Source of the DNA: an uncultured Eubacterium sp.
Lineage (GTDB): Bacteria > Bacillota > Clostridia > Lachnospirales > Lachnospiraceae
NCBI GenBank assembly: GCA_945939115.1
Contig: CAMEVC010000001.1
Span: 62,001-126,000, forward strand
Direction: 5' to 3'
Length of the DNA: 64,000 bases
Shown here: positions 1 through 6,142 of the stretch, in pieces
How the letters are laid out: each line of letters begins with the position of its first letter
Position numbering within the stretch: the first letter of the stretch is position 1
Program-made: the position numbers and the translations under genes
Notes under the pieces: model-generated
The model's database searches: none
What the model was told of the DNA's origin: nothing
Seen by the model: only the letters and a program-made list of their open reading frames with translations

Positions 1-48
1 ATATGTCATGAACGCGAAGTAATTATAATAACATAGAGAGGGATTTTT

Positions 49-2676
49 ATGTCTAATATACAACAGACTAATCCGGTTAATATAGGTATGCTGGCTCATG
101 TTGATGCCGGGAAAACTACGCTCTCTGAGGCAATGCTTTTTAGGGCTGGAAGTATCAGGAAGCTTGGCAGAGTGGATAATCAGGACACATTTCTTGATAC
201 CGGTGATATGGAAAGAGCAAGAGGAATAACCATATTTTCAAAGCAGGCAGCTTATAGCTATAATGGTAGACAGTATACACTCCTTGATACGCCGGGACAT
301 GTGGACTTCTCTGCGGAGACGGAGAGGACACTGTGGGTGTTGGATGTGGCAGTGCTTGTAATAAGTGGTATGGACGGTGTGCAGGGACATACAGAGACAC
401 TTTGGAGTCTGCTTAAGAGACTTGGAATTCCTGTGTTTATATTTGTTAATAAAATGGATCAGCAGGGTACAAGCAGAAGCAGGATTATTGAACAGTTAAA
501 GAACAAGCTTTCCGGGAGTTGTGTGGATTTCAATAATCTGGATTATGAGGAGGCTGCGCTGTGCCAGGAGGAGGCACTTGAGCAGTTCCTTGAGAGTGGC
601 GAAGTGGGTCAAGAGCTTTTAAGCCGCATGATTATGGAACGAAAAATATTTCCAGTGTATTTTGGTTCGGCGCTCAAGGTTGATGGAGTGGACGAACTTA
701 TGGAGGGTATTGATAAGTTTGCAGGAACCCCTGATTATGGTGATATATTTAAGGCAAAGATATATAAGATAACAAGAGACGAAAGAGGAGAACGCCTGAC
801 TCATCTAAAGGTGTGTGGAGGTTTGTTGCGCACAAAGATGCTTATTGGGGATGAGAAGGTCAACCAGATACGCGTCTATGCCGGGGATAAGTTTTCCAGT
901 ATAAATGAAGCTGTTCCGGGAACTGTCTGCGCTGTGACGGGACTTAATGAAACCCGGGCAGGACAGTTTATTGGAGAGGATGGGCAGGACAATATTCCTG
1001 TGCTTGAACCGGTTCTTAATTACAGATTAAATCTCCCGGCAGGAGCTGATCCTGTGGTACTTTTATCAAAACTGCGTATGCTGGAGGAAGAGGAGCCGGA
1101 GCTTCATGTGGAGTGGGATGAGAATTTTAAGGAAATTCATGTGAGCGTTATGGGACCGGTTCTTATAGAGGTTCTGAGCAATATTATAAAGACAAGATTT
1201 GGAGTGGATGTAACATTTGGAGAAGGAAGTATTGTATATAAAGAAACAATTGGAAATAAGGCTTATGGAATAGGGCATTTTGAGCCGCTGAGACATTATG
1301 CAGAGGTGCATCTGCTTCTTGAACCGGGAGAGTCGGGAAGCGGAATGAAGTACCAGTGCCGCTGTAGTGAGGATATATTAGATAAGAATTGGCAGAGACT
1401 TGTATATACACATTTGTGTGAGAAGACACATAGAGGAGTCCTCACAGGTTCAGAACTTACAGATATGGTGATTACACTCGTGGCAGGAAGAGCGCATCCT
1501 AAACACACTGAAGGCGGTGATTTCAGACAGGCTACCTACAGAGCAGTAAGACAGGGGCTTATGCAGGCGGAATCAGTCCTTCTTGAGCCTTTCTATGCAT
1601 TTTCACTTGAGGTCAGAAGAGAGTATGTCGGAAGGGCGATGACAGATTTCGAGCGGATGGGAGCTGCATTTACACTGCAGGATGCAGACGGTGACAATGT
1701 GATAATTACAGGAGAAGGCCCTGTGTCTGTGATTGGTAATTATCAGGCTGAGGTCAACGCTTACACAAAAGGCAGTGGAAGACTGGCACTTCAGATGGCT
1801 GGCTACAGACCATGTCATAATACAGAAGAAGTCCTTGAAAAATACGGTTATGACCCGGAGAGGGACACGAGAAACCCTGCGGATTCAGTGTTCTGTGCCG
1901 GAGGCTCAGGATATGTCGTGCCATGGAATGAGGTGCGTGATCATGCTCATGTTGAGATTGCAGTTTCTGACACAACAGTGGCAGGAGGACAGACAGACAA
2001 GAAAGTTAAGCTCTCTGCAAAGCAGGCTTCAAGAACTGTATCAGATGAGTGGATTGGGACAGATGAGGTCGACAGAATCCTTAATGAGACATATTTTGCC
2101 AACAGCAGAGGTGACAATGAGAGGAGAAAGCTTTCCAAAAGGAAGGCAGATTCCGCAACGGGGAAATATGTGGCAGGTGGAGTGAGCAGAATATCTTCAG
2201 TTAAGAATCCGCCAAAATCACCGTCTTACGACCCGGCTAAGATGAGTTACCTGCTTGTTGACGGATATAATATAATTCACGCATTTAAGGAGCTGTCAGA
2301 GTTAGCAGAGATTAATCTTGACAGCGCAAGGGGGAGGCTTATAGATATTCTGTGCAATTATCAGGCAATGAAGGGTTGTGAGCTGATAGTTGTATTTGAT
2401 GCTTACAGGGTTGCCGGACATGATGAGGAGTTTATGGACTACCACAATATTCATGTGGTGTTTACTAAGACGGCAGAAACTGCGGATCATTATATAGAAA
2501 AATTTGCACATGAGAATGGAAAGAAATATAATGTCACGGTGGCAACCTCCGACGGAGTTGAGCAGGTCATAATCAGAGGACAGGGATGTCTTCTTATATC
2601 TGCAAGAGAATTCGAGAAAGAGATTGCTGCAATGGAGGAGTATATACGGGAGAGTTATCTTAATAAATCATACTAA
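49..2676 (+). CDS. TetM-like translation GTPase fused to C-terminal NYN (YacP/Rae1-like) nuclease domain
   Basis: 875-residue fusion. The N-terminal ~650 residues follow the EF-G/ribosomal-protection-protein plan: G1 AHVDAGKTT (residues 16-24), G2 GITI, G3 DTPGH (~79-83), G4 NKMD (~134), then EF-G domains II-V. After a polar linker (~660-730) comes a NYN/PIN-like domain (~735-865) beginning LVDGYNIIHAF, with conserved acidic positions in FDAY, TADHYIE and SDG, as in YacP/Rae1, which in Bacillus cleaves mRNA in the ribosomal A site. Inference: a translation factor that binds the ribosome and delivers an endonuclease there. The ~640-residue Tet proteins lack this tail, so tetracycline resistance should not be assumed. 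RBS GAGAGGGA lies just upstream of the ATG; the next gene follows after 14 nt, so they are probably cotranscribed. Confidence 0.85.
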   Translation: MSNIQQTNPVNIGMLAHVDAGKTTLSEAMLFRAGSIRKLGRVDNQDTFLDTGDMERARGITIFSKQAAYSYNGRQYTLLDTPGHVDFSAETERTLWVLDVAVLVISGMDGVQGHTETLWSLLKRLGIPVFIFVNKMDQQGTSRSRIIEQLKNKLSGSCVDFNNLDYEEAALCQEEALEQFLESGEVGQELLSRMIMERKIFPVYFGSALKVDGVDELMEGIDKFAGTPDYGDIFKAKIYKITRDERGERLTHLKVCGGLLRTKMLIGDEKVNQIRVYAGDKFSSINEAVPGTVCAVTGLNETRAGQFIGEDGQDNIPVLEPVLNYRLNLPAGADPVVLLSKLRMLEEEEPELHVEWDENFKEIHVSVMGPVLIEVLSNIIKTRFGVDVTFGEGSIVYKETIGNKAYGIGHFEPLRHYAEVHLLLEPGESGSGMKYQCRCSEDILDKNWQRLVYTHLCEKTHRGVLTGSELTDMVITLVAGRAHPKHTEGGDFRQATYRAVRQGLMQAESVLLEPFYAFSLEVRREYVGRAMTDFERMGAAFTLQDADGDNVIITGEGPVSVIGNYQAEVNAYTKGSGRLALQMAGYRPCHNTEEVLEKYGYDPERDTRNPADSVFCAGGSGYVVPWNEVRDHAHVEIAVSDTTVAGGQTDKKVKLSAKQASRTVSDEWIGTDEVDRILNETYFANSRGDNERRKLSKRKADSATGKYVAGGVSRISSVKNPPKSPSYDPAKMSYLLVDGYNIIHAFKELSELAEINLDSARGRLIDILCNYQAMKGCELIVVFDAYRVAGHDEEFMDYHNIHVVFTKTAETADHYIEKFAHENGKKYNVTVATSDGVEQVIIRGQGCLLISAREFEKEIAAMEEYIRESYLNKSY

Positions 2677-4424: not shown

Positions 4425-4528
4425 AATATAATTTTCATGTATGAATATATTTAAAAGCGTATGGAAAAATGTTACAATCTAATTAAGAAATATCGTGAAA
4501 TAGCGTTATCGCGGAAATGAGGCATAAT

Positions 4529-6142
4529 ATGAGAATTACATTTTTAGGTGCAGATCATGAAGTAACGGGAAGCTGCCATTTTCTACAGGCTGCCGGACTG
4601 AATATTCTTGTGGATTGTGGCATGGAGCAGGGTAATGATGTGTATGAGAATCAGGAACTGCCTATACCGGCTTCTGAGGTGGACTGTATATTGCTTACCC
4701 ACGCCCATATTGATCATTCGGGACTTATCCCGCTTATGTATGTGAATGGTTTCAGGGGAACTGTTTATGCAACAACAGCAACTACACAGTTGTGTGAGAT
4801 AATGTTAAAAGACAGTGCCCATATCCAGATGTTTGAGGCCGAATGGAGGAACAGAAAGGCAGCACGTTCAGGAGGAAAGTTAAAGGAATTTGTACCTCTC
4901 TATGATATGGATGCGGCTGTCAATGTATGTAAACAGTTTGTCGGATGTGATTACGATACGGTTATCAATGTGTCAGAGGGAGTGAGAATTAGATTTACTG
5001 ATGTGGGGCATCTGCTGGGGTCAGCGAGTATTGAGATATGGATAGATGAACAGACATCGGAAGGCGTAGTATCTAAGAAGATTGTCTTCTCAGGTGATAT
5101 CGGGAATATTAATAAACCTATTATTAAAGATCCTAAGCATATTAAAGATGCAGACTATGTTGTTATGGAATCAACATATGGTAACAGAAGCCACGGCGGA
5201 ACGCCTGATTATGTGAAGGATCTGGCTGATATTTTCAAGCGTACATTTGACAGAGGCGGCAATGTTGTTATTCCTTCATTTGCGGTAGGAAGAACTCAGG
5301 AGCTTCTTTATATTATCAGAAAGATTAAGGAACAAAAGCTTATTGATAGAGATTTCACTGTATATATGGATAGTCCTCTTGCTATTGAAGCAACTAACAT
5401 ATTCATTAAGAATGTGGAGAGCTGTTTTGATGAAGAAGCGGTGGAACTTGTAAGACGGGGAATCAATCCGCTGACATTTCCGGGGCTTAAGTATGCAACT
5501 ACAGGAGATGAATCCAAGATGATTAATTTTGACCCGGAGCCGAAGGTCATAATATCTTCATCAGGTATGTGCGAGGCGGGAAGAATCAGACATCATCTTA
5601 AACACAATCTCTGGAGGCCGGAGAGTACGATTGTCTTTGTAGGATATCAGGCTGTAGGAACTACAGGAAGAATTATTGTAGACGGTGCGGAAGAAATCAA
5701 GCTTTTCGGTGAGCCTATACAGATTAAGGCGGAGATAGTACAGCTTCAAGGCTCAAGCGGACACGCAGATAAGGAAGGATTACTTAACTGGATTAACGCA
5801 TTTGATAAGAAACCGGACAGGGTGTTTGTAGTTCATGGCGAGGACAGTGTATGTGACGAATTTACCGCATGTCTGAGGGATGAATATGGATATAATGCAA
5901 TAGCACCTTATACGGGAGCAAGTTATGACCTTGTTGCCGGCAGAGTAATAACTGAGGGTATAAGAGAGAAGAAGACCAGAAGAACAACTACAACGCAGCG
6001 TAACAGAACTGTATTTGACAGGCTGGTTGCTGCAGGAAAACGTCTCATGACGGTTATAACACACAATGAGGGTGGAGCGAATAAAGATTTGGCTAAGTTT
6101 ACAGACCAGATTAATGCATTATGCGATAAATGGGACAGATAA
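4529..6142 (+). CDS. MBL-fold beta-CASP metallo-hydrolase, RNA-processing type
   Basis: 537 residues from the preferred ATG (4529), which has GAGG six bases upstream; an in-frame ATG at 4517 lacks a good site. The metallo-beta-lactamase core has LTHAHIDHSG (the HxHxDH zinc motif), VGHLLGSA and SGDIG. The beta-CASP insert follows (GGNVVIPSFAVGRTQE), and a C-terminal RMMBL region with GSSGHADKEG and VFVVHGED. This is the architecture of CPSF73/Ysh1-like bacterial RNases (metal-dependent RNA endo- or exonucleases). A basic segment near residue ~480 (KKTRRTTTTQRNR) may aid RNA binding. It is followed after 19 nt by the lipid kinase gene. Confidence 0.85.
   Translation: MRITFLGADHEVTGSCHFLQAAGLNILVDCGMEQGNDVYENQELPIPASEVDCILLTHAHIDHSGLIPLMYVNGFRGTVYATTATTQLCEIMLKDSAHIQMFEAEWRNRKAARSGGKLKEFVPLYDMDAAVNVCKQFVGCDYDTVINVSEGVRIRFTDVGHLLGSASIEIWIDEQTSEGVVSKKIVFSGDIGNINKPIIKDPKHIKDADYVVMESTYGNRSHGGTPDYVKDLADIFKRTFDRGGNVVIPSFAVGRTQELLYIIRKIKEQKLIDRDFTVYMDSPLAIEATNIFIKNVESCFDEEAVELVRRGINPLTFPGLKYATTGDESKMINFDPEPKVIISSSGMCEAGRIRHHLKHNLWRPESTIVFVGYQAVGTTGRIIVDGAEEIKLFGEPIQIKAEIVQLQGSSGHADKEGLLNWINAFDKKPDRVFVVHGEDSVCDEFTACLRDEYGYNAIAPYTGASYDLVAGRVITEGIREKKTRRTTTTQRNRTVFDRLVAAGKRLMTVITHNEGGANKDLAKFTDQINALCDKWDR

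Follow-up and report, generated by a model that had tools for sequence, protein, structure and literature searches.

A translational GTPase fused to a Rae1-type nuclease and its replacement of stand-alone rae1 in clostridial genomes

In the clostridial genomes compared here, a Rae1-type nuclease domain fused to a translational GTPase and the stand-alone rae1 gene nearly exclude each other. The replacement of stand-alone rae1 by the fusion is well supported and is the strongest new fact of this work. The fusion from which we started is encoded at positions 49..2676 of a stretch of 64,000 nt from an uncultured Eubacterium sp. (Lachnospiraceae), which is called the window below. Based on our observations, the fusion is probably the functional successor of Rae1/YacP in the window's lineage, acting as a GTPase-delivered, ribosome-dependent mRNA endonuclease.

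The fusion as such was already known. Atkinson et al. 2015 (PMC4342817) devote two sentences to it: in ten Clostridiales species a YacP-like NYN RNase domain was acquired by Tet proteins, and the authors suggested a new antibiotic-resistance mechanism; a replacement of rae1 is not mentioned in these two sentences. The domain combination is like that of the window's protein, and the Tet-NYN fusions described there very probably belong to the same protein family. A search of titles and abstracts revealed no other paper on the fusion; an earlier mention is possible, most likely in Condon et al. 2018 on the distribution of Rae1. So far as this search shows, the fusion has been reported since 2015 and is yet uncharacterised, and what we add is evidence on its role.

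Domain architecture of the fusion protein

The fusion gene comprises the following features:

49..2676, plus strand: whole fusion ORF, 875 aa, ATG start, one unbroken frame
76..720, plus strand: G domain, residues 10-224, with the motifs AHVDAGKT, RGITI, DTPGH, NKMD and GSAL (Pfam GTP_EFTU, 1.5e-52)
748..1221, plus strand: EF-G-like domains II and III, residues 234-391 (EF-G_D2, 234-306, and EFG_III, 320-391, above cut-off)
1228..1569, plus strand: domain IV, residues 394-507 (EFG_IV, 3.1e-13)
1495..1521, plus strand: domain IV tip loop HPKHTEGGD, residues 483-491, aligned to SPVST of Tet(W)-like proteins
1576..1821, plus strand: domain V, residues 510-591 (EFG_C, 1.3e-15)
1822..1956, plus strand: extension after domain V with SVFCAGGSGYVVPW, residues 592-636 (alignment)
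1957..2241, plus strand: linker, residues 637-731, for the most part disordered in the AlphaFold2 model (pLDDT); helix predicted at 671-681
2251..2664, plus strand: NYN_YacP/Rae1-type nuclease domain, residues 735-872 (Pfam, 3.8e-49), with the acidic residues D738, D784, D813, E817 and D835

All six Pfam domains of the window protein exceed their curated cut-offs, the NYN_YacP domain with 167.3 bits against a gathering score of 24.6. The G motifs and the five domains typical of EF-G-type proteins are all present, and the five G-domain motifs are invariant or nearly so in 23 aligned fusions. Thus, the intact TetM/EF-G-like GTPase described in an earlier note on this DNA was recovered by Pfam domain search at residues 10-591. 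A segment like the extension after domain V forms the end of four of the five unfused GTPases compared.

An AlphaFold2 model of the window protein, for which 23 fused sequences served as input, has a mean pLDDT of 74.7 and a pTM of 0.57. Its pLDDT is below 50 at residues 639-726, where short helices are predicted at 657-660, 671-681 and 690-696. The linker has a median length of 92 aa (range 76-266) in the 104 parsable of 105 fusions, and 65 of these 104 show a loose helix pattern in it. When the whole model was compared by Foldseek (1922 matches), the best 50 matches contained EF-G-type chains and neither an NYN nor a TetM chain. The nuclease identity of the C-terminal domain rests on sequence, not on Foldseek.

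Fused frames of about 850-1040 aa recur among relatives, and a complete fused frame is present at 77 of 80 named loci, the other three being cut or without the search motif. These named loci are the best 80 of 597 loci encoding some relative, fused or not. The fusion is therefore no accident of assembly or frame. In the window's genus, short fused frames were found at contig ends (G006, G007) and at frame breaks (G017 and one of the two places in G018).

Distribution of fused and stand-alone nuclease genes

The window genome contains exactly one NYN_YacP domain, which is the fused one. Among 137 genomes at least 90% complete that were drawn from the order, 48 have the fused form only, 72 the stand-alone form only, two have both and 15 neither, so that an NYN domain is present in 122. 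In this sample every open frame longer than 300 aa was counted as fused, including some that are broken or limited by their contig (G135, G074, G149). A match to the fusion's GTPase family is present in each of the 50 genomes with a fused NYN domain, that of G074 being weak (38% over query residues 126-391). The 15 genomes with neither form include G117, whose GTPase lies at the end of a contig and which lacks an NYN match. Fisher's exact test gives p = 4e-21 for the exclusion, a value that overstates it since genomes are not independent samples.

A second sample of 146 genomes at least 95% complete, drawn from the class and sharing at least eight genomes with the first, comprises 55 fused, 44 stand-alone and 47 with neither form, while none has both. 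Here the threshold for a fused call was 290 aa, and short frames occur in G308, G313, G216 and G312. At seven of seven fetched loci of fused genomes found only in this sample, GTPase and NYN domain lie in one frame; the remaining class-only fused calls are based on frame length. A second NYN match of G282 was an Lrp-type regulator and was removed from the count.

The two forms can alternate between close relatives. One genus contains both a fused (G171) and a stand-alone representative (G176), and likewise within one genus G197 and G282 are fused and G223 is stand-alone. Both genes are present in G149 and G167, congeners of the fusion carrier G085 with an estimated contamination of 5% and 6%, respectively. 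Their sigH proteins are 83% (G149) and 91% (G167) identical to that of G085 and their rlmB proteins 67% and 77%, which argues against foreign contigs. In the window's own genus, the NYN domain was found in 12 of 13 genomes at least 90% complete. At the thresholds applied, both the NYN domain and the GTPase are absent from G012, a 99% complete genome of this genus. This genome and the 15 of 137 and 47 of 146 genomes with neither form indicate that the function is dispensable.

The old rae1 site between rlmB and sigH

In B. subtilis the annotated gene order is cysS-mrnC-rlmB-rae1-sigH. Of 18 stand-alone rae1 loci that were fetched, 13 have both rlmB and sigH adjacent, four have one of them and one has neither. 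This sole exception (L094, G123:C1:393000-397000) belongs to a genome of the window's family which has an unfused GTPase. We viewed the same site in five genomes with the fusion (G000, G056, G085, G149 and G167). In the window genome (L066), rlmB (592-1344) is followed by sigH (1360-1998) with no gene between them. Two fusion carriers retain a wreck of rae1 at this position: in G056 a start-side piece is followed by an out-of-frame tail-side piece, and in G085 there are stop codons and a stretch is missing. G167 and G149 have the fusion plus an intact-looking rae1 at the rlmB-sigH site.

The old neighbourhood bears on an older view, credited in Atkinson et al. 2015 (PMC4342817) to Anantharaman and Aravind 2006, by which the NYN domain serves in rRNA or tRNA maturation. 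In line with it, rlmB is an rRNA methylase gene, and mutations in yacO (rlmB) and rae1 act in one pathway according to the part of PMC6613710 that deals with them. However, PMC12320835 and PMC6613710 present Rae1 as an endonuclease acting on mRNA in the A site, and we regard a maturation function of the fused domain as hardly probable at all.

The nuclease domain

The NYN part of the fusion matches the solved B. subtilis YacP 5mq8 with 1.6e-24 in a sequence search. Residues D738, D784, D813, E817 and D835 of the window protein correspond to D7, D53, D81, E85 and D104 of B. subtilis Rae1. The earlier note had named loss of the acidic residues in orthologs as evidence against its reading; all five are present in each of the 129 fused domains compared (126 by counting, three without the DGYN motif by eye). 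This set consists of 52 domains from our genome samples and 77 from the named loci (best 80 of 597), two sources that overlap in part (L126/G019, L173/G031); the broken frames L018, L019, L027, L028, L029 and L040 and three of the 80 named loci were left out. Seven of eight pairs yielded dN/dS estimates, which were 0.021-0.119 for the NYN part and 0.052-0.102 for the GTPase part, with synonymous sites near or beyond saturation in several pairs. The NYN part is under strong purifying selection.

The earlier note had also described the NYN domain as complete. The domain is real, spanning residues 735-872 with all five acidic residues, but it is without the last approximately 30 residues of Rae1. 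This C-terminal segment, which stand-alone Rae1 of B. subtilis requires, holds R166 (B. subtilis numbering), and R166P is among the suppressor mutations which the authors of PMC6613710, in the part concerned with them, read as loss of YacO or Rae1 activity. Fifty-two of the 129 fused domains, the window's included, end more than 20 positions short of the profile end, as compared to none of 17 stand-alone sequences, on which the profile was built and which all reach its end by construction. Since 48 of the 129 still reach to within six positions of the end, tail loss is no rule. It may be that the tail is needed less when the GTPase takes the nuclease to the ribosome.

Taken together with the genomic data, the fusion resembles Rae1/YacP of B. 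subtilis (PDB 5mq8/5mq9) in NYN family and in the five acidic residues, and it stands in genomes mostly without rae1. It differs in being joined to a GTPase, in its location away from rlmB-sigH and in the tail, which is largely gone in the window and 51 other fused domains.

Recoding at stop codons within NYN matches (G010, G015, G061, G097 and others) was considered and dropped. The internal stops, viewed directly for G010, G015 and G061, were read as normal stops in the tail region of the model. An NYN domain 66% identical to that of the window is encoded in a "Bacteriophage sp." record from human faeces (H23, MT835514.1:17382-17798), which may be a mislabelled bacterial contig.

The GTPase part compared with Tet proteins and EF-G

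The tip loops of Tet proteins displace the drug, as stated in Atkinson et al. 2015 (PMC4342817). The best NCBIfam match of the window protein is tet_protect, with 409.5 bits (curated cut-off 775); for the TetM/W/O/S model and a further Tet model the scores are 287.2 (cut-off 1100) and 243.4 (cut-off 1420). By sequence, the closest solved structures are TetO and TetM. At the tip of domain IV, all 77 full-length fusions among the named loci (best 80 of 597) show the pattern H-x-[KR]-H-T-x-G-G-D, and SPVST is found in none of them, while both Tet(W)-like proteins compared have it. SPVST comprises the tip-loop letters which we take to matter in tetracycline ribosomal protection. L114, which is outside the 77, deviates from the pattern and reads KHTSPND in the alignment. 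Judged by the scores and the tip sequence, the label "ribosomal-protection-type", which the earlier note had given to the fused GTPase, misleads.

The fusion is like TetM, TetO and Tet(W) in its five-domain EF-G-like architecture and its intact G domain, and its identity to the two Tet(W)-like rows compared is approximately 30%. It differs from them in scoring below the curated Tet cut-offs, in falling into a separate clade (see below), in the other domain IV tip, and in having an extra C-terminal segment plus the nuclease. With EF-G it shares the domain order, and H483 of the window protein aligns with the histidine of EF-G GSYH. However, the genome has a separate EF-G, which reaches 1148.8 bits, while the fusion reaches only 142.7 and 102.6 in two pieces. 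Besides these two, the window genome has three further translational-GTPase-like frames, which from size and rank we read as RF3, TypA and LepA.

These data can be set against the suggestion of Atkinson et al. 2015 (PMC4342817, the sentences on the fusion) that the protein serves antibiotic resistance, with the GTPase dislodging tetracycline and the RNase adding a second mechanism. Resistance would fit the best NCBIfam match, the closest solved structures and the annotation of one fused record (H2) as TetM/TetW/TetO/TetS family, but the scores lie far under the cut-offs and the SPVST tip is absent. Moreover, Tet(W)-like proteins of approximately 640 aa, which are 32-33% identical to the query, coexist with the fusion in G017, G026, G035, G061, G138 and G171. 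The presence of the NYN domain in nearly all genomes of the window's genus also speaks against resistance, as does the rarity of the protein on plasmids: among 72,556 plasmid records, only two cover 80% or more of the window protein, with approximately 50% identity and on replicons of 518 and 252 kb. We consider resistance very unlikely.

Unfused GTPases of the fusion's family are present on plasmids of Ligilactobacillus salivarius. The records H2-H5 and H7-H12 are annotated as TetM/TetW/TetO/TetS family tetracycline resistance proteins, H2 being fused and the rest unfused (L. salivarius), and the records H1 and H6 as translation factor GTPase family protein. Such annotations are a possible source of false resistance calls. 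Caution is advisable, since what is probably a housekeeping factor can end up being counted as tetracycline resistance; of the two fused plasmid records, one carries this annotation.

Ancestry and spread

A quick tree of the GTPase part (68 rows, SH-aLRT support only; broken frames and matches of fewer than 450 residues were left out) places all 51 fused rows on one branch with 99% SH-aLRT. The only row labelled unfused on this branch (L056) comes from G006 and is truncated by its contig. Next outside the branch is the unfused GTPase of G091, with the other unfused GTPases and the Tet(W)-like outgroup further out. Fused rows of the families f2 (in part), f21 and f24 nest beside G022 of the window's family (f1), on branches with 95-99% support, which suggests gene transfer between families. 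The tree of the NYN domain (69 rows) has little resolution. It needs two label changes, one of them forced by well-supported (starred) branches, and thus a single fusion event is not shown by the NYN domain.

The named relatives (best 80 of 597 loci) include Anaerostipes butyraticus, a Roseburia MAG, Clostridium punense, Desulfosporosinus acididurans and Fusibacter sp. 3D3, and thereby show a wide spread in Clostridia. Together with the class sample, they show that the fusion reaches beyond Lachnospiraceae, which the earlier note had chosen as the scope for comparison.

It is conceivable that GTPase and nuclease have separate jobs at the ribosome and were fused only for co-expression or stoichiometry, without gating. 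The long linker, predicted to be mostly disordered, would be compatible with such an arrangement. An unfused GTPase and a stand-alone NYN gene occur together in 16 genomes of the order sample, but this co-occurrence is no evidence, since NYN is present in 122 of the 137. Against it stands that L056, the sole row of the fused clade lacking NYN, is truncated by its contig. The loss of the Rae1 tail in 52 of the 129 fused domains looks as if the GTPase took over a task of the tail. On balance, we find mere tethering rather unlikely.

Upstream element and neighbouring genes

One further feature lies at the start of the gene:

L002:7969-8042 (3' arm at window positions 20..42, 5' arm before the window), plus strand: inverted repeat of approximately 24 bp over the ribosome-binding site of the fusion

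The region has a fold z-score of -8.4 (L002:7940-8075). Behind the repeat there is a T run; the left arm has -10-like hexamers, and the loop contains a 9-codon reading frame. Among 22 upstream stretches, a like element was seen by eye in L022, L032 and L033 and not in L014 and L030. From its sequence, the repeat is probably the terminator of the upstream operon, overlapping a promoter.

Directly upstream, before the window (L002:705-7932), there is a run of polyamine-type genes, which, judged by eye from their sequences, would encode a PLP decarboxylase, a spermidine synthase-like protein, carboxynorspermidine enzymes, an agmatine deiminase and a carbamoylputrescine amidase. As functional partners these genes were rejected, being present at only four to seven loci. 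When the neighbours at 100 loci were clustered, 98 of which were in the fusion's own cluster, no conserved operon partner emerged: the most widespread neighbour family was present at 16 loci at most and consists of mixed ABC transporters at varying distances and on varying strands. A link to bmrCD, which is reportedly a target of Rae1, was dropped for this reason. Two genes downstream of the fusion (window 4517-6142), a 541-aa frame resembles by eye a metallo-beta-lactamase/beta-CASP RNase. Genes for tmRNA and MutS2 are present in the window genome.

Proposed role

The earlier note had proposed that one factor both recognises a ribosome state and cleaves the mRNA. The data lend indirect support to the ribosome-dependent cutting of mRNA, since the fusion replaces rae1; recognition and cutting by one factor would be a further step. 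We infer that the GTPase delivers the nuclease and that GTP gates this delivery. According to our proposal, a translational GTPase of the EF-G/Tet superfamily, rather than a drug-resistance protein, would have gained a Rae1 nuclease at its C-terminus, whereupon stand-alone rae1 would have become redundant and been lost.

Ribosome binding, cleavage and the order of events may be pictured as follows. The GTP-bound factor would bind to ribosomes with an open A site, which are paused or stalled, and its EF-G-like domain IV would reach the decoding centre. The GTPase would thus bring the nuclease to the factor-binding site. Since GTPase and Rae1 cannot both fill the A site, a hand-over must be assumed, for which GTP hydrolysis would be the natural trigger. 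After hydrolysis and release, the flexible linker of approximately 90 residues would let the nuclease enter the vacated A site, where it would cut the mRNA in the manner of Rae1, and the shortened message would be left to tmRNA and decay.

Going further, it is tempting to speculate that the fusion is a GTP-gated rescue factor that inspects and then cuts: in a large part of Clostridia, the GTPase would survey ribosomes and hand those with a stalled, empty A site to the tethered Rae1 nuclease, and the gene would have spread between families by transfer, displacing the resident rae1. This extended version is possible, and we advance it only tentatively.

The fusion is of interest for several reasons. 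Only a small number of bacterial enzymes are known to cleave mRNA in the A site of the ribosome; the 2025 review PMC12320835 lists Rae1 and the RelE toxin family and describes this list as incomplete. How Rae1 is directed to particular ribosomes is poorly defined. That Rae1 is naturally fused to a translational GTPase, and that many lineages have lost the free enzyme, suggests a partner activity, and the fusion offers one protein for structural work.
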